Assembly (NCBI GenBank): GCA_023474025.1
Contig: JAMCYH010000283.1
Location: 1-37,981, forward strand
Direction of reading: 5' to 3'
DNA: 37,981 bases
Source: Deltaproteobacteria bacterium
GTDB taxonomy: Bacteria > Desulfobacterota > Desulfomonilia > Desulfomonilales > Desulfomonilaceae
The position numbers were made by a program, and so were the translations under genes. The notes beneath the pieces were generated by a model that saw only the letters and a program-made list of their open reading frames with translations, was not told where the DNA came from and did not search any database. Positions 1 to 37,981 of the stretch are shown here, piece after piece (the first letter of the stretch is position 1; each line of letters starts with the position of its first letter).

Positions 1-1122
1 ATCCAGGGGGGCCGCTTCAGCAAAAATGTCACTGATCATCCGCTTCACTAAAGGAACACGGCTTGATCCGCCCACAAGAATTATACGATCGATATCATCT
101 ATTCCTAACTTAGCGTTCTCCATGGACTTTTTAACAGCCTCTTGGGATTGCAGCACCAGGTCTCTAATGGCATCCTCAAACTCTATCCTTGTCACGTTGT
201 ACTCTATGTTGTGGAGTTGACCTTTCTCATCCTTTATAAAGTTTGGGATATTAATTTCTGCCGACTCTCTGGCAGAAAGTTCCTTTTTCGCCTTTTCCGC
301 TGATTCTTTCAGTCGCTGTTGCGCTTCCTTAAGAGTATTTTTGGATAGTCCCTGATCCTTTGCCAGATCTAGAATGTCCAGACCCGTCTGGTCTTTGAAT
401 CTTTCGCTTATTATGGCCATGAGTCTTGCGTCGAAATCGTCACCTCCAAGTCTCGGAACCCCTTCTTTTGCCAACACTTCAAAATTGCCGACCCAGTTAT
501 TTTCCGTCTCGGAAGCCTCCGGTGAGGCCGTTTTGACCCGTAGGATTGATACGTCAAAGGTTCCACCTCCTAGATCGTAAACGAGAATTGTCTGCTCTCT
601 GGCTCTATCGAAGCCATAGGCAATCGCGGCCGCAACAGGCTCCTCCAGGAGGTAGAGTACTTGAAGTCCTGCCAACCTTGCTGCCTCAAGAGTCATGTTC
701 TTTTTGGTGTCGTCAAAGTTTGCAGGAACGCAGATTACCGAATATTGTAATGCGCCTTTGTAATCAAAGGGGCTAGCCTCTTGAGCCCCGTTCCGGAGTT
801 TTCCCAGAATCTTGGCCGAGATATCGGCGGGGGAGAATCTTTTTTGAGGTAGACGGGTAAATTCTTTAAAATACGAAGTGTTGCCCATTTCCCTCTTAAT
901 GCTGCCAACAGTGTTCTCCTGGTCGATCAACATCCTGTATTTCGCTTGTTCACCTACCAGGAACTCGCCACTTTCCTGAACACAAACCACGGAAGGGACT
1001 GTCTTTTGTCCTTCGATCTCTATTACCTCAGCTCTACCTCTGTGGAAAAGAGCTATCGACGAGGTGGAGGTCCCCAGATCAATCCCCATGATGTAGGGGC
1101 TGTTTTTAAGCACAAGACCCAT
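1..1122 (-). CDS. Hsp70/DnaK-like chaperone, 3' end outside window
   Basis: Reading the minus strand from an ATG at 1122 gives 374 codons without a stop before the left edge, so the C-terminus is missing. The start is supported by AAAGGAG just upstream (about 1130-1136). The visible part is a complete actin-like ATPase domain: phosphate-1 motif GIDLGTSTSS near residue 13, a Lys in GSIKREMG equivalent to the catalytic Lys of DnaK, phosphate-2 motif DLGGGTFDVS near residue 186, and the adenosine motif ILVGGSSRVP near residue 354. An insertion of about ten residues (ASPEASETEN) follows the phosphate-2 strand. It lies 31 bp after the stop of a second Hsp70 gene, in one minus-strand operon with a VWA/FHA protein. 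There is no neighbouring grpE or dnaJ, so this is probably a specialised paralogue rather than the housekeeping DnaK. Whether it has a substrate-binding domain or lid cannot be seen. Confidence 0.9.
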   Translation of the reverse strand, partial: MGLVLKNSPYIMGIDLGTSTSSIALFHRGRAEVIEIEGQKTVPSVVCVQESGEFLVGEQAKYRMLIDQENTVGSIKREMGNTSYFKEFTRLPQKRFSPADISAKILGKLRNGAQEASPFDYKGALQYSVICVPANFDDTKKNMTLEAARLAGLQVLYLLEEPVAAAIAYGFDRAREQTILVYDLGGGTFDVSILRVKTASPEASETENNWVGNFEVLAKEGVPRLGGDDFDARLMAIISERFKDQTGLDILDLAKDQGLSKNTLKEAQQRLKESAEKAKKELSARESAEINIPNFIKDEKGQLHNIEYNVTRIEFEDAIRDLVLQSQEAVKKSMENAKLGIDDIDRIILVGGSSRVPLVKRMISDIFAEAAPLD

Positions 1123-1153
1123 CTGCTATCTCCTTTCGAAGAATGTATCGCAT

Positions 1154-2695
1154 CTAGAAGCCTTTGAATTGCACCGCAACGCTTTTGGCGTGTCCATTAG
1201 TCGTGAGATCTTCCAGCGTTTCAAAATCCGTCAATAGACCATCCGGGGACACATTTTCCAGATAAGCCCTGGTTTTGGGGTTGTCGACCATCTCCACGGC
1301 GGTGAAGTGTATAATTCCATCTTCGTCCAGATTAAAAACCGCTGCTACTTGAATAAATCCTTTTGTCGGCTTGGATATAGGCAGCACAAGTTCTGTGAGA
1401 AAAGTATTTTCGCTGGGATTATCATTTTCTCCTCGATATACCCTCATACGGACTTCCTCTTGATAGGGGGCCACAGTAGAGCCCAGTTTGCCTCCCTTGC
1501 ATGGAATCGTAGAATTCCTTTTAATCAACGGCTGAAAAAACACTCCTGAATAGTCAGGTCTCATCATTTCAATTCCTAACGAGTGGGCCGTGACATTTAT
1601 CACTTCTACGGGAGAGAGGTCTTCTTCTGGTAGATAGAAACTTGCGGCTACGATAGCTGCTCCATGCGCTACAGCTTCATCTACTCGCTCGGAAGTGTAG
1701 GGCTCCTTGATTTTCTCGGCCACCATATCTCTCACTGCCGGTATACGGGTTGATCCGCCCACAAGAATTACTCGATCTATGTCTTCAGAGCTAATTTTAG
1801 AAATTGTCAGAGCATCGTCCACTTTTTCAAATGTCTTTTCTATTAGAGAACGAATCGAGTTTAAGAATTGCTCTCTAGAAAGTTTTAGATAAAAAGGACG
1901 TCCCAGAATATCCGGGATTATGATCTCGGTTTCTTGAGCCGAAGAAAGTTCGATCTTCGCGTTTTCTGCCTCTTCTTTGAGCTTTTGGAGAGCGATCCGA
2001 TATTCTTTCGAGGAAGTCCCAATCAGATCCATCCCCTCCTGTTCCCTAAATTTTTGAGCAAAGTGCTTCACTATGGCTTCATCAAAATCGTCCCCACCCA
2101 GTTGAGAATCTCCATCGACTGCTAACACCCGAAATTTGTTTCCCTCTACTCTTAAAATCGAAACATCGAATGTTCCTCCGCCAAGGTCGTAAACCAGTAT
2201 TGTTTGGTCTTTACCTTTATCCAGTCCATAAGCCACCGCAGCTGCGGTGGGCTCTGGGATCAACCGAAGGACATTGAGACCAACCTTCTCTCCAGCCAAC
2301 CTAGTATCCAGTTTCTGCGATTCATTGAAATATGCCGGCACCGTAATAACTGCGTTTATGACCCTTGTGTTGAGGTTTTCTGACGCTCCGTCCACTAATC
2401 TACTTAGGATCAAAGACGAGATATCGACCGGACTGTATGATTTATCATGTATTTTGTACTGAATAGCCGGATTTCCCATATGACGCTTTACTGACGCTAC
2501 GGAGTTTTCCGGGAAGACATGAAGTCTGCTTTTAGCTTCTTCGCCGACGATCACTCGTGCATCAGCAAAAGAAACAACCGATGGGAGGGTGTTTCTACCG
2601 TCTATGGGGATCGTTTCGGCCTTTCCTCTTCGGTAAATCGAAATGACCGAATTCGTGGTTCCCAAATCGATCCCTACCGCATACTCGTTTGACAT
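1154..2695 (-). CDS. Hsp70/DnaK-like chaperone lacking the helical lid (513 aa)
   Basis: ATP-dependent chaperone family. The preferred start is the ATG at 2695 (MSNEYAVGID), preceded by GGGGAG at 2703-2708; a longer frame to 2746 has no support. The ATPase domain (about residues 1-370) shows GIDLGTTNSV at 8-17, the catalytic Lys in SVKRHMG, DLGGGTFDVS near 175 and LVGGSTRIPA near 335. The interdomain linker is degenerate: the usual VLLLD is replaced by VEVINV before TAHSLGIE. A beta-sandwich substrate-binding domain of about 120 residues follows and the protein then stops. DnaK is about 640 aa, so the alpha-helical lid and disordered tail are absent. Upstream is a transmembrane VWA/FHA protein (145-bp gap) and downstream another Hsp70 (31-bp gap), all on one strand. 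Inference: a dedicated chaperone for a membrane-linked system, not the general heat-shock DnaK. Confidence 0.92.
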   Translation of the reverse strand: MSNEYAVGIDLGTTNSVISIYRRGKAETIPIDGRNTLPSVVSFADARVIVGEEAKSRLHVFPENSVASVKRHMGNPAIQYKIHDKSYSPVDISSLILSRLVDGASENLNTRVINAVITVPAYFNESQKLDTRLAGEKVGLNVLRLIPEPTAAAVAYGLDKGKDQTILVYDLGGGTFDVSILRVEGNKFRVLAVDGDSQLGGDDFDEAIVKHFAQKFREQEGMDLIGTSSKEYRIALQKLKEEAENAKIELSSAQETEIIIPDILGRPFYLKLSREQFLNSIRSLIEKTFEKVDDALTISKISSEDIDRVILVGGSTRIPAVRDMVAEKIKEPYTSERVDEAVAHGAAIVAASFYLPEEDLSPVEVINVTAHSLGIEMMRPDYSGVFFQPLIKRNSTIPCKGGKLGSTVAPYQEEVRMRVYRGENDNPSENTFLTELVLPISKPTKGFIQVAAVFNLDEDGIIHFTAVEMVDNPKTRAYLENVSPDGLLTDFETLEDLTTNGHAKSVAVQFKGF

Positions 2696-2840
2696 TAAAT
2701 TTTCTCCCCAAGCGCTCACCAAGATGAAATAAGATGACGCAATCAATCAAAAGACATACTGAAATGCCAAACCATCCCACAGTCGATGGCGCTCGATCTC
2801 AACCAACAGTTATTAATGCTCTGAAAATAATGCGCTCCTT

Positions 2841-4415
2841 TCAGCCCCTGAGTAGAGTCATTTTTGTCAAGTAGAGAAATTTCGTGGCGCCAACCATGAA
2901 CGTATCTTCAGGACAGATAGTGGCCTCGTGTACCTCCTTTCCATCGACGTTTAGCGCCCTGTCTCCGATTGTCTCCAGCCTAATCTTCTCCCTTGATCTG
3001 ATAATTTGAACATGTTTGCTAGCAATACCAGTGTCCCCGACGATAGTAATGTCGGAGTCAGACCCACTTCCCAATGTTACAGGGGACCTGTCCAATATAA
3101 TCAGTCTGCCAACCTGGTGGCCTGCAATCACCCTGATCCAGGCCAGTTTGGAAATCGATTCCGCAAACGGCACAGTGAAGCCTATGGCTGCGCCAAGCAC
3201 ACAAAATCCCACAAATCTGTTGACTATACCGGACGTTACACCCAGCCCCCCTAAAACGTATTGAAAGATTTCAAAAAGAAAAGCGCCCAGCAAACCTCCA
3301 ACGAGTCCTCCCGTTGCGCCAAAGACAAAAGCACGAAAAGTTCTTCTAGGTATGGCGGCGCAAATTCCGATTGCGACGCCAATAATGGCCCAGCCTATAC
3401 CCCTCGAGAAGTGGGACAATAGGCCCGCCGGATACTCTCCCGCCTGAGCTAGTCCCTGTCGGGCGTACTCCTCCAGTATTGGAACCAATCCGGCAATATC
3501 GTCCACAGCAGTAAACCGCCCACCAGTCTTTAAGGAAATTCGTTCAAGCAAGGCTCGATCGTAGTCTAATCCTGTTCCCACAGTGTTTATAGGAATTGAG
3601 TTAAAAATGAAAAAAGGCAAAGACTCCAGTACTGGAGAGTAACCTCCGGTTGGTTTGCCATCAGTAATAAGGATTATTTCGTGCCTTGGTGAAATGAAAG
3701 ATTTTAACCCTTGACGCTGGCTTTTGAATGTCGATTTTGTTTCCCCGTAGTTTTCGAAGAGTTTTCTAGTCTGGAGCAAAGCTTCATCCATACGTGTAGC
3801 CCCAAACGCAGACATTTGGTTAGCCGTAGCGATGACTGATTTGTAATCATCAGTCGGGGGAGCAATGACCTTTGCATGGTCTGAAAAAGCTACGCATGCA
3901 AGTAGATTGTTACCCCTTTTGTCCATAGTTTCTACGGTGGAAATGTATGCCTCAACGGCGGTTTTCAAAGATGCGAGCGGTTTTCCACGCATGCTTCCGG
4001 AAACATCCAGAACAAGAATTTTCAGAGCTTTAGGGGAGTCCGTATGCCCTTGAACCTGCTCTATGGCTAGTTTTGTGGCAAGTGTGGCAGGAACCAGGAT
4101 TACCAGTGAATAGAGAATCGCCCGTAAAACTCCTGTAAATAAAGATGCCGGATTCCTCTCCAGGATGCCATCAACAGACATTACAAACAGGCAAATAAAG
4201 AATCCGACTGAAAGTAGTATGAAAAAATCGCGCCAAAAAGAAAAATTTTCCTGATAAGGTTCTGAAAGAAGCCAGCCAGTCAAACCACCAGTTAGGCCAA
4301 CCAGTAAACCTAAAAGTGTTTTGTGATTAACTGCCCGATCCGGTCCAGCCGGAAGACCAATGGACGATAGGAATTTCTCCAGCCGACTCAGTATGTCGTT
4401 AAGATCAATACTCAT
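2841..4415 (-). CDS. Membrane protein with VWA domain and C-terminal FHA domain
   Basis: 524 aa from the ATG at 4415 (MSIDLNDIL); a TTG further upstream (4466) is less likely, and GGAGG lies about 12 nt before the ATG. Three hydrophobic segments (about residues 33-51, 62-82, 95-115) precede a von Willebrand A domain (about 130-315) with an intact MIDAS: DVSGSM at 137-142, Thr207 in GATRMDEA and TDGKPTGG from 251. Three more hydrophobic, glycine-rich segments (about 340-420) lead to a C-terminal FHA domain (about 435-520) with LGSGSDSDI and the SKHV phosphopeptide-binding motif. Three helices on each side would put VWA on one side of the membrane and FHA on the other. FHA domains bind phosphothreonine, but no Ser/Thr kinase is visible in the window. 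It heads the operon with the two Hsp70 genes. A role as signalling scaffold is inferred. Confidence 0.88.
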   Translation of the reverse strand: MSIDLNDILSRLEKFLSSIGLPAGPDRAVNHKTLLGLLVGLTGGLTGWLLSEPYQENFSFWRDFFILLSVGFFICLFVMSVDGILERNPASLFTGVLRAILYSLVILVPATLATKLAIEQVQGHTDSPKALKILVLDVSGSMRGKPLASLKTAVEAYISTVETMDKRGNNLLACVAFSDHAKVIAPPTDDYKSVIATANQMSAFGATRMDEALLQTRKLFENYGETKSTFKSQRQGLKSFISPRHEIILITDGKPTGGYSPVLESLPFFIFNSIPINTVGTGLDYDRALLERISLKTGGRFTAVDDIAGLVPILEEYARQGLAQAGEYPAGLLSHFSRGIGWAIIGVAIGICAAIPRRTFRAFVFGATGGLVGGLLGAFLFEIFQYVLGGLGVTSGIVNRFVGFCVLGAAIGFTVPFAESISKLAWIRVIAGHQVGRLIILDRSPVTLGSGSDSDITIVGDTGIASKHVQIIRSREKIRLETIGDRALNVDGKEVHEATICPEDTFMVGATKFLYLTKMTLLRG

Positions 4416-4797
4416 GGTTTTTTCTAGCCTCCGTAGGTCGGGCGGCTTGCTCACTTTTCCCAACAAACAATTTTCATAGACATTTGTTCCGACCCAAAAA
4501 ACTACGTCCTTCGGAACGCGGTAAGAGTCTGAAAGGTATATCTGTCTACCGCTCGTTTATTAATTCAGGTTTTTCACTTGTTCTCTAAAACTTCTAAATC
4601 AGAAAAAGCAGCCAAAACAGACAACTAGGCTGATAAGCAATTTGAGAAACAGCAAAAAATTAATTGAAAAAGCGCCGCAATCGATTTCCAAATTTCGGCT
4701 ACATTATCAAGTGAAAGTGTATAAATTGATCTCCCCTCCCTCTGGTCCAGGCCCTTAGTCTGTTTAAGGCCCGGCTAAGCGCTCTGAGCGCGACTAT
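4416..4797. other. Intergenic region between VWA/FHA gene and ankyrin gene
   Basis: No convincing coding sequence. It must hold the 3' end of the RHS-ankyrin transcript and the promoter of the VWA/FHA-Hsp70 operon, both minus strand. Just after the ankyrin stop, minus-strand RNA could form a short GC hairpin (GCGC/GCGC, about 4782-4794) and then an imperfect stem of about 10 bp near 4750-4775 (CCGGGCCTTA pairing with TAAGGGCCTGG). Neither is followed by a U-run, so intrinsic termination is uncertain. A short inverted repeat GTTCCGA/TCGGAAC flanks about 4486-4518. No clear sigma-70 promoter stands out; a TATACC element near 4540 has no good -35. Confidence 0.4.
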
Positions 4798-5853
4798 CTA
4801 TCTGGCCCCGAAAGACGTTAGCATGCGCTTAGCATGCTTATTACCTCTCTTGGAGGCTATTTCCAATGGGGTCTGTTTGTAACGGGTTGCGGCATTTGGA
4901 TCCCCTCCACTTTCAAGGATCAGTTTGACCACTTCGATATCGCCCTTTCCAACCGCATAATGAAGGGCGGTCCACCCATCTTTTTCCTTTATGTTGACAT
5001 CAGCGCCGTTCTTGATCAAAATCGTAATAGTGGAAGGATCTCCCGCAAGGGTTGCCCAAATCAGAGCTGTCGCTCCCGAGCTATCTTCCATATTAATTTT
5101 GACGGGAAAGCTTTCCAGGATCATGCTCACTGCGTTTCTCCGAGCTGTCTTGGCCGCAGCCATTAGGGCTGAGATACCGTCCTTATTTAGACACGAGGCG
5201 TCGGCGCCTTTGAGGATGAGCAGTCTGACAACTTCGACATGACCCTTTTCCGCTGCACGGATGAGAGCGGTATTTCCTTCTGTGTCAGCAGAGTTAATAT
5301 CAGCTCCATGAGCCAGTAATAATGCTACAATCTCACGGCCGCCTATCGATGAAGCTATAATCAAAGGGTTCGAACCGGCTGCATTTCCAATATTTACTAG
5401 CGCCCCCTTTTCCACGAACAATTTCACTATTTCAATTCGATTCCTCCAGCATGCCCAACAAAGAGGAGTATCTCTGTCTCGCTTGTCTTTACCATTGATA
5501 TCCGCACCGCTATCCAAAAGCAACTTGACGATTCGATGATGACCTTTTTTGACAGCCCGAATTAGAGGGGTAGCGCCATCCACATCGCTCACAGATTCGA
5601 CAAGAGTGTCTTTATTTAGTAATTTTGTTACATTAGCCACATCCCCTGAATCAACGGCCTTGAAAAGAGCCTCAACATCTTGTTCTCTGTCAGCGCAACA
5701 TATGCCGCAACCAAAATTGAACAAAAAAATCAATACGAATGTGATAAATGCAATTTTTGAGGAACCGGTCCCCCAATTTCCATCACAAACCCCTCGTACC
5801 AGGTGTGGACAAAACCCGGCGCTCAACCGTCCAATAAGAACATTTTTTCTCAT
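4798..5853 (-). CDS. Exported ankyrin-repeat protein
   Basis: 351 aa, beginning at ATG 5853 with GGAG about nine bases upstream. The N-terminus has a long polar stretch (about 33 residues), then a hydrophobic segment (about 34-50) ending in a Cys-rich FGCGICC sequence. This may be a signal peptide or anchor; it is not a canonical lipobox. The rest is about nine ankyrin repeats of 33 residues, with hallmarks such as GATPLIRAV, GNTALIRAAEKGH and GWTALHYAVGKGDIEVVKLIL, to residue 351. Ankyrin repeats are protein-binding scaffolds with no enzymatic activity of their own. The gene starts 24 bp after the stop of the giant RHS-like protein and is almost certainly co-transcribed. A binding partner or immunity-like role toward that protein is a reasonable but unproven guess. 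Confidence 0.88.
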   Translation of the reverse strand: MRKNVLIGRLSAGFCPHLVRGVCDGNWGTGSSKIAFITFVLIFLFNFGCGICCADREQDVEALFKAVDSGDVANVTKLLNKDTLVESVSDVDGATPLIRAVKKGHHRIVKLLLDSGADINGKDKRDRDTPLCWACWRNRIEIVKLFVEKGALVNIGNAAGSNPLIIASSIGGREIVALLLAHGADINSADTEGNTALIRAAEKGHVEVVRLLILKGADASCLNKDGISALMAAAKTARRNAVSMILESFPVKINMEDSSGATALIWATLAGDPSTITILIKNGADVNIKEKDGWTALHYAVGKGDIEVVKLILESGGDPNAATRYKQTPLEIASKRGNKHAKRMLTSFGAR

Positions 5854-5877: not shown

Positions 5878-8800
5878 TCACCGGACTCTCGATGTTGCAA
5901 AAGACGCCACTCTACCATTTTCATCATAAAGTACACTGATAAGCTTTTGATCTCCATATGTTGCGGCGATCAGTCTCCCCTTTTGATCATAATCGTATTT
6001 CAACTCCAAACCATCTTCAGTCGTTATGTTTTGAGGTTTACCGTTTTTGGGAGTTTCACCGGTGTAGTATTTCCATTTGACTATCGCACCATCAAAATGA
6101 CGGACTTCAGTGAACCCAGACTCGCCGAAAGACACATCAGCAGATTTCGTTCCAGACGAGACTTTCATCAACTTTAACGAGCCGTTCTGAGGATCATAAT
6201 GATTCGACTGGGAGGCTCCCCAGGACGTGAACACCTTTCCAACTTGACCGGAGGCCTCGCGCTCCACGGTCACGTATCCTCTGTTCGTAGAAACGGAGTC
6301 TGGTTTCCCTGTCGATCCGTAAACAATTTTTACATCGGCATGGGCTGAATCCTTGATTCCCACGGCTCTGCCTAATTTATCCAGGCTAAATGTTAGCCAG
6401 TGGATGGTTGACGGGTTGTCTCCAGATTGGTTGATTTTCAGTTCATCGAGAATGCCTTTTTCGTCTCTGTACCACCGAAATGCTGTCGGTCCAAATTCAA
6501 GTGTCTTGATAGCCCCGTCCTTGTATTTGTAAACATTGCCGATCAACGTTTCCCCTTCTTTGAGCAAAATGTGTCCGCCCTGCTCTATCAGGCTCTGTGT
6601 TCCGCCTTCAGGAAGTTTGAGGTTCACCTGAGCAACTCCATCTGGGGTCTTGTTTATCTGACATTTAAACCCATCCGGGTCGGTATCGGTTTCCACCGCT
6701 GATCCATCTTTAGCGTATCGGAAAGCGATTTTGGCTCCATCTGGATGCAGTTCGGTTAGAGGTCTTAGGCTCTTGTCATACTGAATTTTCGTTACGCCTA
6801 AAGATCCGTTTGGCAAAGTTTCCTCTTTAACTAGCAGTGTTCCCTCTTTGTTGCTTGCGAATTTGTAAGACGCCACAAGATTGCCATCTTGAGCAATTTC
6901 TTTCAGCAGACGACCGTCTACATCGTATTGATATGACCTTCCTTCTCCGTTCTTTTTTACGGACACAAGTAATGATTGGTCGTATCTGTACGATTCTACG
7001 CTATCAGTAGTATGAGTCTGCGTCAGGCGGCCTGAATCATCGTATAAGTAGTCAACATGCTGACCGATTGAGGAATCTGCTTTTTTTACACGATTTTTCT
7101 CATCGTACTCGAAACGGATGTCAGAGAGGGGTTTTTCGCCGTACCAAGCTTCAATTTTGGTTAATCGGTTTTGAGCGTCTCGTCGATAGACTAAAGTGGT
7201 AGCGCCCTCCGAATTTGCGCAAAGGAATCCGTCTTTCCCAAAATACCAAATTCTCCCATCTTTGAAGCGAATTTTGATATCACCCAACCCTGATTTTGGT
7301 TCTGAACCTCCAGTCATGGCGAGAATATCGTCAGATTTTGCTGGAACATGAAAGTTTCCCTGCAACTGGGCCACATATTTCTTTTCAAAAAAAGATACAT
7401 TTACCGTACCCATAGGAGTCGTGAGAAAGTAACTAGGACTCAAGGTAATCTTGCGTCCTTCAACTTTGACAGGGCGTTTGGAATCCAATAATAGGTGAGG
7501 CAGATCAAGTGACCAGCAGAGGCCCAACTCTCCATTTGGCCGTAGAAAGGAACTGTAATACCGAGTCAATTCCAACTTCCTTTCGCTCGAGATAGGCAAG
7601 ATGAGATCGACCCGTTTGAGGAGTAGGGGACCAACTTCCTTTGAACTCCTGCCAGGTAAAACCACAGCCGTGTAATTCTTTCCGTCTTTGGGGACAGTTA
7701 TAGAACCTGGTTTGGGTGAATGCGGGAGGGATTCAGCTACCACCTTGCCCAAGGCAGAGGCTTCCGGGTCATTAGGAACCAACCTGTAAGGTTTGTCCTT
7801 AAGCGAAGGGTTAAAGATGGGTGACATCCCTACCCCTCCCATGGCTCTCCTCTCATTCCCGAGATCCCGCACATTATAGAACCTGGGATCAGATGTTGGA
7901 GTTGGGTAAAGGCTTAATCTATGATTCCTCATCCATATGGGCAAAGGCGCCCCTGAATCTCTTAATTTTTCAGCAACTCCGGTTATAGATGCGATTCGTT
8001 TCAACTCATTGAACACATGAAATTTTTTACCTCGATCCCGTCCTTCCAGAGGACCGCTAGTCCATTCTCGAGCTATGTCATCATAATGTCTCGTAAACCA
8101 GTTCGCATAATCCAGGTCCTTTTTGCGGGGCTTTCCAGGACGAAACGACTCACCTCCCACAAAAATGTCAGGAGGATCGACATTCAGCCGAAGAGGCACG
8201 TCCAGTAGCGTAACATCTTTGGTTTGGCTTTCCCGCCGAACCACTTCCTCAGGGGTTATCCAGAATCGGGTAGATGATACTATTTGCCTGCCATTTTCAG
8301 ATCCCAAGCCGGACCAACCTTCGAGAAATCTTTGGTCAATCAATTGCCTATAGTCACGGATTCCCGAGCGAATTATTTGCTTGGTAATATTGTCAGCGCC
8401 TACACCATAATTCTTCATCACACGGTCCGCCTCATAAAGTACCCAACCGGCGAAAGTTCCCTCCATCTCGGGACCGTATTGGGGTTTATGGCTCCCTTTG
8501 CGATTTTTGGGATCGTCCTCAATGGAAACCCATGGACCCTCACCGTGGTCATACACACTCTTGAAAATGGCTACTACGTCATCGAGTCTTAAAGCTGACA
8601 AATCTAAAGCAGTTTTCTTTTCATCGCCGATCAGGACAATTCTCCCATTGGCTTGGTCCAAAGCGACCCCCTTAAGTTTTCCTAGCCCCTCCAACGTCTT
8701 TGAAGCTCCGGAAAGCCACACCCCCCCGACATTACCGGCATGGTGATGAGCAGCGCCATGTTGATGAGCGTACGAGTAGGAGCGGGAAATGCTCCTGTAG

Positions 8801-10986
8801 TAAGTCGATGATGACGAATAATACCTCCCGATATTATACGACGAGGAGGAAGGGTATGTTCGCCAATAGTAGACATAGGGCTCATAAACCCACCACAAAG
8901 GTTCATGCGAGTCCGCCCAGTAAGGAGCCAGACGATGGCTGATCCTTTTTCGACGTTTCTGGTCAAGAAGAGTCTGTCGCAGTTTTTCGATATCGATGTC
9001 GCAAAATCGGGTTGCATTTTTACTAGAGCAATAGTCTAAGACGTCTGTTAACCTGAGTCCCTGGACAAGGATCTTTAAAAGTTTTGCTTCCTGGGAATCA
9101 GCGTCTGAGGTCATTGCGGGTTTAATTCTTTTGTCGACGGCAGGTTCATCGCGTTTCACGGATTTGTCTTCAAACTTTGGACGCATACCCTGCGAGGTTA
9201 GGTCAGCGGTCGATGACACCCTTTTCCCATGCGTAACCAAACTGTCTGAATACGCATCCAGCGCCTGCGCAGTGGGCCGCCGACCATTCCGATCTACAAA
9301 ATTCACGGGGTCATTCGCACAGTAAGTATAGGCTGATAAATTCTTTTGCGAACCGTATGAGACGCTATGGCTTGGATCTCTTTCCATAAATCGGCAGAGT
9401 TCGGGAACGTAGCGACGAACGCCGGCAACGTATATACCTACTGAAGGATCGAGAAAGAGTCCGGCAAATCCCGGCGCCAAGTCAGAAGGAAATGTTGATC
9501 CCGAAGGAACGCCAAAGGGGTCGTAGGAAAGAACTCGAGTCACATTTCCATCATGATCGACGACGAGCCGCACCGAGCCTAGAGCGTCTTCAAGATAGAA
9601 CTCCGTTCCAATTCTCGTTAGCGATCCTATTGGCCTAGAATCCCAAATATATAGGCGTTCAATCTCATCTTTTCCAAGGGTCACCAGAGGTTGCCAGATG
9701 TCTGAAAAAGGGAGCAACAAAAAACGATTCGTTTTAGTTCCGCGGGTTCGTTCGATTACCTTCCCGTCACAGTCATACTTGTACGAAACGGAATTATCCC
9801 CTCTAGTGAAGCGCACAAGGTGATTTTCCACGTCGTAATCATACTTTGATTCATGGCCGTCTTGCGTTATCCAAGTGGTAAGGTTTCCTACTGTGTCATA
9901 TCCAAATCTGTCCGTACCATTTGTCAGTATTTTCCCATCCCAGTCATAGGTTGCGTTGATCAATTTCTCTTTGGAATCAACTGATATACGGTTACCAAAC
10001 CGATCGTAGCTCATGCGCAGGACTTTGCCGGGACTGGATTTCGCCTCAATCAATCTCCCCGCCTTGTCATACTGATACTGAACGTTCATCTCCGACGGAC
10101 CAGAGGCAGTTCTTATCCATTCCTTTGTGGAAGCTATAAGCCCATCCGGACGATAGGAATAATCGAAGCTTGCAAGCACTCGATTGTCCTTGTCCGTGTG
10201 TACTATTTTTTGAAGCTTCCCGTCCGGAAGGTATTCGAATCGACTCGCCACACCATTAGGTAGTTTTCGTATGACGCGTCCTTTTGAAGGCCAATACGAG
10301 TAATCTACTTGTCCAACTGGAGTTTTCAGGGAGCTGAGACGACCCATGAAATCGTATTCATAATGCAACGAATGTTTTTCACCGACATGAATGGCGCTAA
10401 CACGGCCGAGAGCATCATGTGAGTACGCTATTCTAGGCATTCCATCCCTTTGAACTGAAGAGAGCCTACCGTAAGAGTCATGGTTCACGACCATTTTGCC
10501 ATTTGGATCTACGCAAGCCTTTAGCCTCCCTAAGCGATCGTAATCCCAGCTTATTGTTTTCCCGTCGGGCAATTTCTTTGTGACTCCGTGTATATCTCCG
10601 CTTTGGTTTTGGGTATATTCATACAGAATCATCCTCTCAGCAGGATCGACCATCTTGGTTGGTTTTCCATCCCGGTCAAAACTGAAACGCCACTCCAGGC
10701 GAGATTTATTTCCATCAGACCTGGAAGATCCCCTAGTTTCGTTCGGTGCCAGCGATTTCGATATTTGGTTGGCTGAAACTTCGGTTGAGGCCAGCATGAC
10801 TCGGCATTTCTCAGAATCTAAAGAACTTTTTTCCACAACGATGTTACGTGAGAGCGCTTTTCCTGATTGGACAGAACTAGTAGTCTCCGCCAAAAGGCAG
10901 CATTCTGAGAGAGTTATCGAGCATACAACAGAAAAGCAAGCAAGGGCCAAAGCATATGTACTAATTAAAGATTTGTCGCTTACCAT
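5878..10986 (-). CDS. Secreted RHS/YD-repeat protein with permuted domain order (1702 aa)
   Basis: Starts at ATG 10986 with GGGAGGGGG (10993-11001) as RBS. Residues 1-33 resemble a signal peptide (basic start, then YALALACFSVVCSITL). Residues about 95-500 are YD/RHS repeats (YDxxGRL types such as WDYDRLGRL, YEYDFMGRL). An RHS core-associated region follows (about 515-568: AGVRRYVPELCRFMERDP, then NDPVNFVDRNG), which in typical Rhs proteins closes the shell before a C-terminal toxin. Here it is followed by about 550 residues without YD repeats, including a Tyr/Ser/His-rich stretch (697-750) and an unrecognised domain (about 785-905, with VSIEDDP and YGPEMEGTFAGWVLYEADRVM). Then comes a region resembling an RHS shell start (ELTRYYSSFLRPNGELGLCWSLDLP, 1139-1163, described in parts) and a second YD array to the very C-terminus. 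No known toxin domain or protease triad was recognised. Followed by an ankyrin gene. Confidence 0.88.
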   Translation of the reverse strand: MVSDKSLISTYALALACFSVVCSITLSECCLLAETTSSVQSGKALSRNIVVEKSSLDSEKCRVMLASTEVSANQISKSLAPNETRGSSRSDGNKSRLEWRFSFDRDGKPTKMVDPAERMILYEYTQNQSGDIHGVTKKLPDGKTISWDYDRLGRLKACVDPNGKMVVNHDSYGRLSSVQRDGMPRIAYSHDALGRVSAIHVGEKHSLHYEYDFMGRLSSLKTPVGQVDYSYWPSKGRVIRKLPNGVASRFEYLPDGKLQKIVHTDKDNRVLASFDYSYRPDGLIASTKEWIRTASGPSEMNVQYQYDKAGRLIEAKSSPGKVLRMSYDRFGNRISVDSKEKLINATYDWDGKILTNGTDRFGYDTVGNLTTWITQDGHESKYDYDVENHLVRFTRGDNSVSYKYDCDGKVIERTRGTKTNRFLLLPFSDIWQPLVTLGKDEIERLYIWDSRPIGSLTRIGTEFYLEDALGSVRLVVDHDGNVTRVLSYDPFGVPSGSTFPSDLAPGFAGLFLDPSVGIYVAGVRRYVPELCRFMERDPSHSVSYGSQKNLSAYTYCANDPVNFVDRNGRRPTAQALDAYSDSLVTHGKRVSSTADLTSQGMRPKFEDKSVKRDEPAVDKRIKPAMTSDADSQEAKLLKILVQGLRLTDVLDYCSSKNATRFCDIDIEKLRQTLLDQKRRKRISHRLAPYWADSHEPLWWVYEPYVYYWRTYPSSSSYNIGRYYSSSSTYYRSISRSYSYAHQHGAAHHHAGNVGGVWLSGASKTLEGLGKLKGVALDQANGRIVLIGDEKKTALDLSALRLDDVVAIFKSVYDHGEGPWVSIEDDPKNRKGSHKPQYGPEMEGTFAGWVLYEADRVMKNYGVGADNITKQIIRSGIRDYRQLIDQRFLEGWSGLGSENGRQIVSSTRFWITPEEVVRRESQTKDVTLLDVPLRLNVDPPDIFVGGESFRPGKPRKKDLDYANWFTRHYDDIAREWTSGPLEGRDRGKKFHVFNELKRIASITGVAEKLRDSGAPLPIWMRNHRLSLYPTPTSDPRFYNVRDLGNERRAMGGVGMSPIFNPSLKDKPYRLVPNDPEASALGKVVAESLPHSPKPGSITVPKDGKNYTAVVLPGRSSKEVGPLLLKRVDLILPISSERKLELTRYYSSFLRPNGELGLCWSLDLPHLLLDSKRPVKVEGRKITLSPSYFLTTPMGTVNVSFFEKKYVAQLQGNFHVPAKSDDILAMTGGSEPKSGLGDIKIRFKDGRIWYFGKDGFLCANSEGATTLVYRRDAQNRLTKIEAWYGEKPLSDIRFEYDEKNRVKKADSSIGQHVDYLYDDSGRLTQTHTTDSVESYRYDQSLLVSVKKNGEGRSYQYDVDGRLLKEIAQDGNLVASYKFASNKEGTLLVKEETLPNGSLGVTKIQYDKSLRPLTELHPDGAKIAFRYAKDGSAVETDTDPDGFKCQINKTPDGVAQVNLKLPEGGTQSLIEQGGHILLKEGETLIGNVYKYKDGAIKTLEFGPTAFRWYRDEKGILDELKINQSGDNPSTIHWLTFSLDKLGRAVGIKDSAHADVKIVYGSTGKPDSVSTNRGYVTVEREASGQVGKVFTSWGASQSNHYDPQNGSLKLMKVSSGTKSADVSFGESGFTEVRHFDGAIVKWKYYTGETPKNGKPQNITTEDGLELKYDYDQKGRLIAATYGDQKLISVLYDENGRVASFATSRVR

Positions 10987-24211: not shown

Positions 24212-25138
24212 ATGTGCGCTATAGATTGCCCTAATTCTAACAGCCACACCTTTCAGGAAAAACATCTAACTAACTTTTTCCGTGAGATAAATTGCAGTGT
24301 AGTTCAATTGGAGAGTGGTCTCTGGCATTCAAATGGCGCCAGAATTTTTCAACCAGTGATTATGAGAGGTCCTATAGAGGTATCAAGTGATGAAAAGAAG
24401 CGACTATGGGATAGTGGTAGCCTCTTTTTGAGATACCCTGTTTCCCGGAATAATTGTGGCATACCGAGTTATATTCACTTAGTCGATGACAAGAATTATG
24501 ACCTAGATTCCTTATGTGGAAATCAGCGAAAGGAAACCAGAAGATCTCTTAGGCACTGTAACGTCGAAAGAGTTGAAATTAGTTATTTGATCAAAAATGG
24601 TTTGGCCCTGGTGACTGATACATATGCGAGACAAGAAAGACACATTAATGAGTGGGGACTGAATTGGTGGAAGAAAAACTTTGAGGTATCAGCCAGGAAT
24701 CCACTTTTTGAAGCTTGGGGCGCTTTTGTTGGAAAAAGGCTTGCAGCTTTTCGAATAGATTTTACTTACCGTGGCGGTTTCTATGGCGACGTCCTTTTTA
24801 ATCGCCAAGATCTGCTTAAATATCAGGCCATGAATGCCTTAATGTTCGTCTCAACTCGCGAAGTTATTAAAAGACCAGAAATAGAGTATGTTTCTTATGG
24901 AATCCGCGCAACTTTTGGTGACGCCCCTTCTCTGAACCGGTTTAAAGAATCAATGGGGTATAGAAAAATTGATTTAATGGAAAAGATTGAAGCCGCTCCG
25001 ATTTTAAAGCCTTTTTTAAAAGTTGACGGTATCTGTTGGTTCGGAAAATTTATTTTGAGCAGATATTCTGAAGAATCCGACAAAGCAAAACGACTTCTGG
25101 CCATCTTGGACGCAATCAGTCTCAGCAACCGAAGATGA
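24212..25138 (+). CDS. FemAB/GNAT-like putative acyltransferase, paralogue 1 (308 aa)
   Basis: Not a named family to me. The protein resembles the GNAT/FemAB-type acyltransferase fold: a block DDKNYDLDSL followed by QRKETRRSLRHC, then NPLFEAWGAFVGKRLAAFRID (given in part), DLLKYQAMNALMFVSTREVI, and a final VSYGIRATFGDAPSLNRFKESMGYRK, which is the usual 'FK.S.G' end of such domains. It shares all these blocks, and exactly the same length, with the protein at 31101-32027. FemAB-like enzymes move aminoacyl or acyl groups onto peptidoglycan or surface polymers. Neighbours (AMP ligase, glycosyltransferases, exporter) suggest modification of a surface glycan. Confidence 0.7.
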   Translation: MCAIDCPNSNSHTFQEKHLTNFFREINCSVVQLESGLWHSNGARIFQPVIMRGPIEVSSDEKKRLWDSGSLFLRYPVSRNNCGIPSYIHLVDDKNYDLDSLCGNQRKETRRSLRHCNVERVEISYLIKNGLALVTDTYARQERHINEWGLNWWKKNFEVSARNPLFEAWGAFVGKRLAAFRIDFTYRGGFYGDVLFNRQDLLKYQAMNALMFVSTREVIKRPEIEYVSYGIRATFGDAPSLNRFKESMGYRKIDLMEKIEAAPILKPFLKVDGICWFGKFILSRYSEESDKAKRLLAILDAISLSNRR

Positions 25139-31100: not shown

Positions 31101-32027
31101 ATGAACCCAACTCCACAAAAAAGTGGACAACCACTTGAAGAAAAATATCTGGCCGATTTTTGCAGAGCCAGGGAGGTTAGATATTTTACTTTTGGAGGGT
31201 CTTTCTGGATGTCGCGGGGCATGAGACTGTTTTCTCCATGGCCGTCTTCCGGAGCGATCTCTTTGTCATCCAACGATCTGAATTTTATGTGGAAGCAGGG
31301 GGCAATGTTTCTTCACTACGCATGCTCCGACGATAAGCCGTATTATCCTGGATATGATCTAGTTATTGACAACAAAAACTATGACCTGGACAGTATTATA
31401 AGCCGTAAACGTCGCCACAATATTCGCTGGGCGTTGAAGCGCTGTACGGTTGAACAAATCTCCTTCGACTCACTGGTTGAATCTGGTCTTCCGCTGATAG
31501 AGGACACCCATAATCGTCAGGGTCGAGTGTCCAACGATTCTGTACTCGAAATGTGGAAAAACTACTTCAGACTGGCAGAATCAAATCCACTGTTTGAAGC
31601 TTGGGGCTCATTTGTATCTAACCAATTAGCCGCTTTCCATGTTTGCCTTTATGTCGGTGGCGCTGTTCATATCGAAATGACCTTTAGCCGAACGGACCTG
31701 CTTAAATACCATCCAGTTGACGCTCTTTGTTTCGTTTCAACCCAGCAGTCAATTACAAAAGACGGTATAACCCACGTTTCGTATGGTAGGCGTCCCATAA
31801 CCGGAGAAGCTGAAGGCCTCATAAACTTCAAGAAATCAATGGGATTCAGAGAAATTCGCGTGAAAGAGCGGGTAGAAATTAACCCCATAATTAAACCCGT
31901 ACTATTCGGACCCCTGGGCCCCATAGCTCATTGTATCGGGGAACGTTATTCCGGGCGTTCAATGTATGCAAGGATATTCTTTGCGCTTACAGAGATGCTA
32001 CAGGGTCAGGTCAAGGACATTGATTGA
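31101..32027 (+). CDS. FemAB/GNAT-like putative acyltransferase, paralogue 2 (308 aa)
   Basis: Paralogue of the protein at 24212-25138 with identical length. Shared blocks in order: DNKNYDLDSI, RKRRHNIRWALKRCTVEQI, SNPLFEAWGSFVSNQLAAFH, DLLKYHPVDALCFVSTQQSI, and VSYGRRPITGE with FKKSMGFREI. The two differ throughout, so the duplication is old. FemAB/GNAT fold inferred; the substrate is unknown. It sits 58 bp after the ABC exporter gene in the same direction, perhaps co-transcribed, whereas its paralogue is next to the CapK-like ligase. Confidence 0.7.
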   Translation: MNPTPQKSGQPLEEKYLADFCRAREVRYFTFGGSFWMSRGMRLFSPWPSSGAISLSSNDLNFMWKQGAMFLHYACSDDKPYYPGYDLVIDNKNYDLDSIISRKRRHNIRWALKRCTVEQISFDSLVESGLPLIEDTHNRQGRVSNDSVLEMWKNYFRLAESNPLFEAWGSFVSNQLAAFHVCLYVGGAVHIEMTFSRTDLLKYHPVDALCFVSTQQSITKDGITHVSYGRRPITGEAEGLINFKKSMGFREIRVKERVEINPIIKPVLFGPLGPIAHCIGERYSGRSMYARIFFALTEMLQGQVKDID

Positions 32028-36389: not shown

Positions 36390-37805
36390 CTATAACGAGG
36401 TTATTTCAACCGATGTTGAGACATTATCGTCCCAGCCATCCCATAGATAATCGTTTTCTTTCCCATCCGCTATCAGCCTAAGGGCATATCTTACCTGTTC
36501 CTCATACAGCTCACAGAATGCGCCAGGATGATTCATCGCGCCATTTATTTCAAAGGCTTCGGCTGGACACGGAGAGCCACAGAAATGACGCACAGCGCAC
36601 GAAGAACAGGGCTGAATATTTTCGACTTTTCTACCTGTAACAGTCTTGAACGCATCTGTTTCAAGGATTTGCGCGATGTCTCCGTTAAACAGGTTTCCAC
36701 CATTAAATCCGGGCACTCCAACGAATTCGCTACACGGGAACAGATCGCCCTTGGCTCCAACCGCAAAGAAACACCGACCTCCGCCACATGGGGAAATGTC
36801 GCACATAAGTCGGCGCGCTGACGGCGCGACTACGCTGACAAGGACGTTGGCGAAATTGGCTATAACAAGCTTTCGACCTGTCTTTTTATAAAGATCATGA
36901 GTTCGGTCCAGGGCCGCGCTGTAATAGGGCCATAGTTCGTTATCCATTGGTTTGATTTCACGCGCTCCCTGCCTGGTGCATCTAACAGGGTTCAACATGC
37001 CGATAGGGACCTCAAGTTCGTGCATAAAATCAACAATATTGCTGAGGTTGGCCATGTTCTGCATTGTTACAGTACAGATCAAATTATAATTCGGGTATCC
37101 CTTAAGTTTTTCCAACACAGACGTGACCTTGCCGAAAAACCCTTCTCCATTCCAGTTCTTTCGCGTTGAATTGGCGATTGCGGCTTCGTGCCCATCAAGC
37201 GACAAGCCTATGCCAATACCCTCTGAAGTGAGAAAAGAGATAGATTCTTCGTCAAGGAGCGTTCCGTTTGTCTGAACACCGAACAGAAAATCGTCCTTAA
37301 ATTTTTTAATGCCTGCAAACACTGCGTCACGAGCAAGCATAGGCTCTGACCCGTGAAAAATAATTTGTGGCAATCTGCCTTCAGGAAGAGTCTTGTTGAA
37401 AAACTCCTTGAGAATGGACAATGCCGAAATCAGTTGATCTTCCGTCATCTGAACGCCGCTTCGTCGCATATCGTCCGGGATATAACAGTAAGAACAATTC
37501 AGATTGCATCGTTCAGTCGGGTTGAAATAAACTGCTGAAGGCTTTAGACCAAACCTCAGATTGTTTATTTCCTGTACGAAACTGTCCCGTTTCTTATGGA
37601 ATTCCTGCATCAACGCGCTTGAGCCATCAAGAGCGTCGGCTATCTTGTCCTTTTTCAAAAGCGACCAGAACGCTGTATCTGGATCAATGAGCGCTACATA
37701 ATCCTTGTGTCCGATGTCGACGAACTGCATCGTGGGACCCGCCCCTGTATTTGAGTAGCGGCCGCTTGAATAGCCGAATTGTTTTTCCTGCTGGTTTGGT
37801 TCCAT
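36390..37805 (-). CDS. Radical SAM/SPASM enzyme, putative peptide maturase
   Basis: 471 aa from ATG 37805 (MEPNQQEKQF), supported by AGGAG at 37814-37818. The frame remains open to 37880, but that extension reads into a duplicated fragment of the gene itself in another frame. The radical SAM core has CNLNCSYCY (Cys100, 104, 107), then FHGSEP, VQTNGTLLDEE and GIGLSLDG. The C-terminal SPASM-type cluster region has CDISPCGGGRCFFAVGAKGD followed by CSSCAVRHFCGSPCPAE and a last Cys in FCELYEEQ. This resembles anaerobic sulfatase-maturase and peptide-modifying enzymes (for example the CbpB or similar families; assignment uncertain). The N-terminal 85 residues could contain a recognition region. No obvious short Cys-rich precursor peptide gene is visible nearby; upstream DNA is cut off by the window edge. 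Confidence 0.88.
   Translation of the reverse strand: MEPNQQEKQFGYSSGRYSNTGAGPTMQFVDIGHKDYVALIDPDTAFWSLLKKDKIADALDGSSALMQEFHKKRDSFVQEINNLRFGLKPSAVYFNPTERCNLNCSYCYIPDDMRRSGVQMTEDQLISALSILKEFFNKTLPEGRLPQIIFHGSEPMLARDAVFAGIKKFKDDFLFGVQTNGTLLDEESISFLTSEGIGIGLSLDGHEAAIANSTRKNWNGEGFFGKVTSVLEKLKGYPNYNLICTVTMQNMANLSNIVDFMHELEVPIGMLNPVRCTRQGAREIKPMDNELWPYYSAALDRTHDLYKKTGRKLVIANFANVLVSVVAPSARRLMCDISPCGGGRCFFAVGAKGDLFPCSEFVGVPGFNGGNLFNGDIAQILETDAFKTVTGRKVENIQPCSSCAVRHFCGSPCPAEAFEINGAMNHPGAFCELYEEQVRYALRLIADGKENDYLWDGWDDNVSTSVEITSL
37173..37299. repeat. Direct repeat copy A (127 bp), inside the radical SAM gene
   Basis: Identical over 127 bp to 37855-37981, same orientation, offset 682 bp. In this copy it encodes residues about 169-211 of the radical SAM enzyme. 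The flanking base differs at the left (T at 37172, G at 37854); the right boundary cannot be judged because the other copy ends at the window edge. Confidence 0.97.
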
Positions 37806-37854
37806 CAATATTTCTCCTGGTGGATGTCTGGTTCTAATCAGGTTTGACTGGCGG

Positions 37855-37981
37855 GGCGATTGCGGCTTCGTGCCCATCAAGCGACAAGCCTATGCCAATA
37901 CCCTCTGAAGTGAGAAAAGAGATAGATTCTTCGTCAAGGAGCGTTCCGTTTGTCTGAACACCGAACAGAAAATCGTCCTTA
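37855..37981 (-). pseudogene. Direct repeat copy B: partial radical SAM gene fragment or assembly junction
   Basis: Exact duplicate of an internal part of the downstream radical SAM gene, ending at the last base of the window. Read on the minus strand it gives the same residues (from about DDFLFGVQTNG to GHEAAIA) and then runs into an unrelated tail and a TAG near 37835, so as it stands it is a non-functional fragment. The length of 127 bp is a common maximum assembly k-mer, making an assembly graph artefact more likely than a true gene remnant. Confidence 0.7.

Follow-up and report, generated by a model that had tools for sequence, protein, structure and literature searches.

A probably secreted, circularly permuted Rhs-type shell protein with an internal hypervariable segment

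The window analysed here is the whole 37,981-nucleotide contig JAMCYH010000283.1 of a Deltaproteobacteria bacterium (Desulfomonilaceae; assembly GCA_023474025.1). Its reverse strand carries, at positions 5878-10986, an open reading frame (ORF) for an Rhs-type protein that we call P0001; homologous loci elsewhere are given L-numbers. The frame runs uninterrupted for 1702 residues with no internal stop codon, its composition (GC and third-position GC, GC3) is uniform throughout, and GGGAGGGGG precedes the ATG start codon on the coding strand. From the N-terminus onward, P0001 consists of a likely signal peptide, an array of YD repeats, an Rhs core, a segment that we call the slot, a domain that we call X, a DUF6531-like shell start and a second YD array, which is directly ended by the stop codon (Table 1). 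The canonical order, by contrast, is shell start, YD repeats, core and a C-terminal variable region.

The RHS_repeat profile PF05593 matches P0001 with 135 bits (E 5.5e-40; cut-off 22), and the Rhs_assc_core profile TIGR03696 matches residues 488-568 with 50.8 bits (E 1.7e-13; cut-off 32.5). The DUF6531 match is weak (residues 1119-1166, E 0.045, below cut-off); the equivalent site passes the 24.1-bit cut-off in L032 (24.7 bits), L045 (25.1 bits) and L051 (25.8 bits), and the block from X into the shell start is conserved between relatives. PF05593, TIGR03696 and, in relatives, DUF6531 confirm the succession of YD repeats, core, non-repeat stretch, shell start and YD repeats that an earlier sequence-only reading of the window had described. 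That reading had the protein begin with YD repeats; YD-like sequence does start at about residue 95, but it is preceded by the likely signal peptide and a linker of about 60 residues. Homologues L019, L043, L047 and L104 have N-termini resembling that of P0001. The stretch of about 550 non-repeat residues is likewise present, but is composite: residues 571-750 are not conserved, and 751-1060 form a conserved domain followed by a connector.

Table 1. Features of the permuted Rhs gene and its downstream neighbour (positions in the window)
Feature	Positions	Strand	Remarks
Permuted Rhs gene	5878..10986	-	1702 aa
Likely Sec signal peptide, residues 1-34	10885..10986	-	Hydrophobic N-terminus judged by eye
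YD2, first YD array in the chain, residues 86-487	9526..10731	-	Equals second half of canonical shell; L019 alignment, profiles
Rhs core / putative aspartyl autoprotease region, residues 488-570	9277..9525	-	R524, D537, D565, G568
Hypervariable internal slot, residues 571-750	8737..9276	-	Ser/Tyr/His-rich toward its end
Conserved domain X, residues 751-1060	7807..8736	-	Probable distant relative of DUF1598
Connector after X, residues 1061-1118	7633..7806	-	Possible plug segment
DUF6531-like shell start, residues 1119-1290	7117..7632	-	Profile match and relatives' alignment
YD1, second YD array in the chain, residues 1291-1702	5881..7116	-	Equals first half of canonical shell
Ankyrin-repeat protein, 351 aa	4798..5853	-	24 bases downstream; hydrophobic N-terminal stretch

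A scan of genome contigs with the whole of P0001 gave no match. We scanned an alignment reaching from X to the shell start against one genome per species, which yielded 26 loci, and assigned block order in the homologues with Pfam, NCBIfam and home-made profiles. L019, a 1642-residue protein of the same phylum but a different family, has an order identical to that of P0001; the two share 32% identity over the first half (about 510 residues, including the core) and 27% from X onward, and the sequence between is unalignable. The succession of core, X, shell start and second YD array also occurs in L027 (Aminicenantes), L028, L043, L045 (Cerasicoccus frondis, an isolate), L047 (Parabeggiatoa) and L051 (Planctomycetia), and in L104 and L106-L110, which later searches added. 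All blocks in the order YD, core, slot, X, DUF6531 and YD are present in P0001 and 13 other proteins. L105 and L113 are cut by contig ends, so that their N-termini are incomplete, but their core still precedes X; in L030 and L050 the protein is broken or has decayed. The swapped order is found in about 15 other proteins from about seven phyla, and the homologues of like order that the sequence-only reading had called for therefore exist. Because the layout recurs in distantly related bacteria, we regard it as a real variant of this family of toxin carriers and not as a sequencing accident. We found no permuted Rhs protein in the open-licence literature. L021 and L033 each have, upstream of an X-DUF6531-YD gene, a short gene with YD repeats only and no detected core; this is the permuted order in separate genes. 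The X-to-start blocks of L047 and L048 are essentially identical (branch length 0) under the labels Parabeggiatoa and Desulfobacteraceae, reflecting either a recent transfer or a binning error.

The N half of the permuted proteins (YD2 plus core) spans about 463-513 residues, and the C half (shell start plus YD1) mostly 510-606, with up to 778 in L108. On RhsA of Pseudomonas protegens, the C-half profile aligns unbroken from residue 257 to 790, and that of the N half covers 900-1289; extrapolation to the full length of the profiles puts the halves at about 243-794 and 807-1293 with no overlap. The same extrapolation on 8qjb, a structure of an Rhs protein of the type VI secretion system (T6SS), gives 12-578 and 594-1077, again with no overlap. 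The two halves hence account for one shell's worth of sequence between start and core in both proteins (243-1293 in RhsA, 12-1077 in 8qjb). In L032, from a marine bacterium, two separate genes encode the half-shell modules in canonical order, and both products start with a signal-like sequence. Using profiles built without L032, gene A was matched over positions 2-563 of 570 and gene B over 10-484 of 487, each unbroken; the 3' end of gene B coincides with the contig end. Since the half profiles tile RhsA and 8qjb end to end, P0001 would contain one canonical shell, permuted. Two complete barrels are rejected on both length and tiling. We conclude that a circularly permuted single shell, as the sequence-only reading proposed, is strongly supported by the homologues, the tiling and the separate-gene halves in normal order. 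A single composite barrel built from both halves would agree with these lengths and with the tiling.

Pairwise identities of the N half correlate with those of the X-to-start block (Mantel r 0.81; 0 of 10000 shuffles). In a tree of the X-to-start block, from which rows cut at contig ends were left out, the permuted proteins need three state changes, compared with a mean of 11.2 after shuffling. The small number of changes and the correlated identities point to an old fusion that has since been passed on as a single protein, by descent and by transfer, and was sometimes split or lost later; the first change could have gone in either direction.

The counterparts of the slot are 75-290 residues long and mutually unrelated, except for some sequence common to L105 and L107. 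They are unrelated even where the flanks on either side are 60% and 67% identical (L106/L108), 48% and 65% (L019/L027) or 49% and 60% (L043/L047). A hypervariable module beside conserved flanks is the arrangement by which polymorphic toxins are recognised. The slot of L107 is a DUF4329 domain (E 4.8e-29), a family that PMC3482391 lists as the Rhs-associated toxin domain Tox-JAB-2. Searches for relatives of the P0001 slot found none: no orphan copy in its own genome was convincing, and plasmids had none. Defence-system models gave no match for P0001. The sequence-only reading placed the variable part internally, tethered at both ends, and asked whether residues 590-1120 vary: residues 571-750 do vary between relatives and have that position, but most of the proposed stretch is the conserved domain. 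We reject the whole of 590-1120 as a toxin, since 751-1060 also occurs in proteins without an Rhs core.

That domain, X, is common to all permuted proteins. With an E-value limit of 0.01, DUF1598 (PF07643) matches 17 of the 65 X domains (best E 1.3e-28) and gave no match to the X of P0001; on these profile matches, X is probably a distant relative of DUF1598. The structure model of X is confident, with a mean predicted local distance difference test score (pLDDT) of 85.8 and a predicted template modelling score (pTM) of 0.88. Against the PDB, X has no match by sequence, and Foldseek returned none below E 0.35. The sole significant match of the model in the libraries searched is to a Tupanvirus J-domain protein (E 4.6e-7, probability 1.00, TM-score 0.45). 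A separate clade of X proteins (L036, L038, L039 and L041) has two X domains and then a DUF6531-like start, with almost no YD sequence.

R524, D537, D565 and G568 of the core are invariant in 15 of 15 N halves. The first three correspond to residues named as catalytic in RhsA (the dyad D1324/D1346) and in BiTLP (R2103/D2116/D2140). Because the catalytic Arg, Asp and Asp are invariant, one end of the cargo may be cut by the putative autoprotease. The DPxGL motif is retained in seven proteins (L028, L043, L047 and L106-L109). In P0001 the cleavage motif PxxxxDPxGL instead reads PVNFVDRNGR, its nearest relatives are altered too, and the P1 leucine of the autoprotease is lost in P0001, L019, L104 and L110. 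Where cleavage occurs, it would separate the slot from the core and leave it joined to X.

We consider it probable that P0001 is a secreted Rhs-type shell protein with a circularly permuted shell and an internal hypervariable cargo. The proposed product is a Sec-exported cocoon. The chain would begin mid-shell and wind through YD2 to the core, which would close one end; after the core would come the slot and X, then re-entry at the shell start, and YD1 would wind on to finish beside the chain's beginning, so that both halves close into one cocoon with the cargo tethered at both ends. RhsA-type three-turn cocoons hold toxins of about 15 kDa and the four-turn cocoons of Tc toxins about 30 kDa. 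The P0001 slot, of about 20 kDa, could fit and would lie inside the shell, as RhsA toxins do. Slot plus X (about 55-60 kDa) would be too large for a three-turn cocoon, so that X (about 35 kDa) is more likely outside, where it probably caps the plug end, like the Tc beta-propeller or the teneurin NHL domain. An active autoprotease would free only the front end of the slot, leaving an N-terminal tip attached through X. The likely role would be contact-dependent antagonism or a similar surface activity. We regard the odds as about even that the permuted cocoon is in addition a natural and widespread form: one closed shell with its ends mid-wall and an exchangeable effector anchored to core and cap, which after autocleavage would be an N-terminal tip held by a new-fold cap, X. 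Single-shell assembly, cleavage and toxicity are predicted parts of this scheme.

Several observations weigh against it. The model of the C half has a pTM of only 0.54 and low TM-scores to solved shells. Domain searches recognised no domain in the P0001 slot, P0001 has DRNGR in place of DPxGL, and size is all that places X outside. No conserved immunity gene follows the permuted genes, and the neighbours of the homologues vary; because of the permutation, an immunity gene would in any case lie apart from the slot.

The strongest alternative, which we nevertheless think unlikely, is a non-toxic surface or adhesive display scaffold made of the shell, X and Ig-like domains, with the slot as a variable recognition loop. 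In its favour, some members carry N-terminal arrays of CARDB and choice-of-anchor D domains, the Ser/Tyr/His-rich slot of P0001 resembles no known domain, the P1 leucine is lost in the four proteins named above, and teneurin shells stay empty. However, the toxin-type DUF4329 of L107, the complete turnover of slots between conserved flanks, which is like that of polymorphic toxins, and the invariant catalytic residues all argue against it.

We give rather less credence to a tail-to-head fusion of two functionally separate half-shells, one TcC-like and one TcB-like, that pair between molecules as a domain swap or polymer. Each half lacks what the other has, the L032 halves are separate chains that would need to pair, and the TcB-TcC pair is itself made of two chains (PMC8765631). 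However, every chain has each half a single time and the halves co-vary, both of which speak for pairing within one molecule, and the connection of about 550 residues is long enough to bridge the two ends. Improbable, too, is an internal segment that is an auto-processing enzyme and not cargo. This has been proposed for papain-like Tox-PL1 domains situated midway along RHS arrays, which PMC3482391 interprets as a releasing peptidase, and the slot of L108 weakly matches an LRAT/papain-like family (E 0.015, below cut-off); against it, slots are mutually unrelated, and P0001 has no other recognisable toxin to release. Finally, a fusion of two neighbouring genes through assembly or sequencing error, named by the sequence-only reading as what would overturn it, we dismiss almost entirely: the window is a contig from a 353-contig assembly that is 86% complete, but the frame is continuous, composition is even, and 13 independent homologues holding all blocks have the same order, including that on a 371 kb contig of the Cerasicoccus frondis isolate genome.

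Four kinds of known system come closest to P0001. T6SS Rhs effectors such as P. protegens RhsA (7q97) also have a YD shell, a DUF6531-type start, a core with catalytic aspartates and a hypervariable segment right after the core; they differ in their canonical order, free C-terminal toxin and N-terminal PAAR domain, whereas P0001 has the swapped order, an internal segment, a likely Sec signal and no PAAR match. Division of the shell at its middle is known from TcB/TcC (PMC8765631), where the C piece comprises YD repeats, core and variable region and the B piece carries the shell start. However, by extrapolation the start of TcC lies about 115-138 residues nearer the beginning of the shell, and in fused forms TcB comes first; in P0001 the order of the pieces is reversed, with slot and X as the link between them. 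Neither the TcB beta-propeller nor other Tc N-terminal domains had Pfam matches in P0001 or the homologues scanned. Bacterial teneurin-like proteins (TLPs; 9pt5, 9ifo), one of which is the best phmmer match of P0001, are likewise secreted single-chain shells with an autoprotease core and a variable toxin, but have canonical order, with NHL and FN-plug domains before the shell, neither of which was matched in P0001 by domain searches. RHS arrays with an internal Tox-PL1 also hold a domain inside the array; the available sections of PMC3482391 describe no permutation, X or slot turnover for them.

In Rhs, Tc and teneurin shells alike, the order is the same and the toxin is free at the C-terminal end, an arrangement on which release through cleavage at the core is founded. 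A conserved permuted version would mean that a TcB/TcC-type mid-shell break can be re-joined the opposite way, and that an internal cassette can serve for the exchange of polymorphic cargo. The question then arises what core cleavage is for when cleavage alone cannot free the cargo; in X, the permuted proteins also offer a conserved domain without a match among solved structures. If true, the permuted cocoon would be a structural and delivery class apart from T6SS Rhs proteins, Tc BC and teneurins.

The ankyrin-repeat protein downstream of the Rhs gene is a possible partner or immunity protein; ankyrin immunity proteins (Imm-ank) appear in PMC3482391. Positions 1-5853, downstream of the Rhs gene, hold on its strand the ankyrin gene, a gene for a membrane protein of VWA plus FHA-like type and, side by side, two Hsp70/DnaK-like genes, possibly as one transcription unit. 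Elsewhere in the same genome, contig C311 (L007) holds a canonical Rhs core-end fragment with a free C-terminal tail beside a transposase-like gene. An exact 127-base repeat lies at 37173-37299 and 37855-37981, reaching the last base of the contig; this length is typical of an assembler k-mer, and the end of the contig, together with the beginning of the radical-SAM-like ORF at 36390-37880, may be an assembly loop. Two paralogues of 308 residues (24212-25138 and 31101-32027), 6.9 kb apart and sharing repeated DNA (families D6 and D9), lie in a region of glycosyltransferase and ABC-transporter genes.
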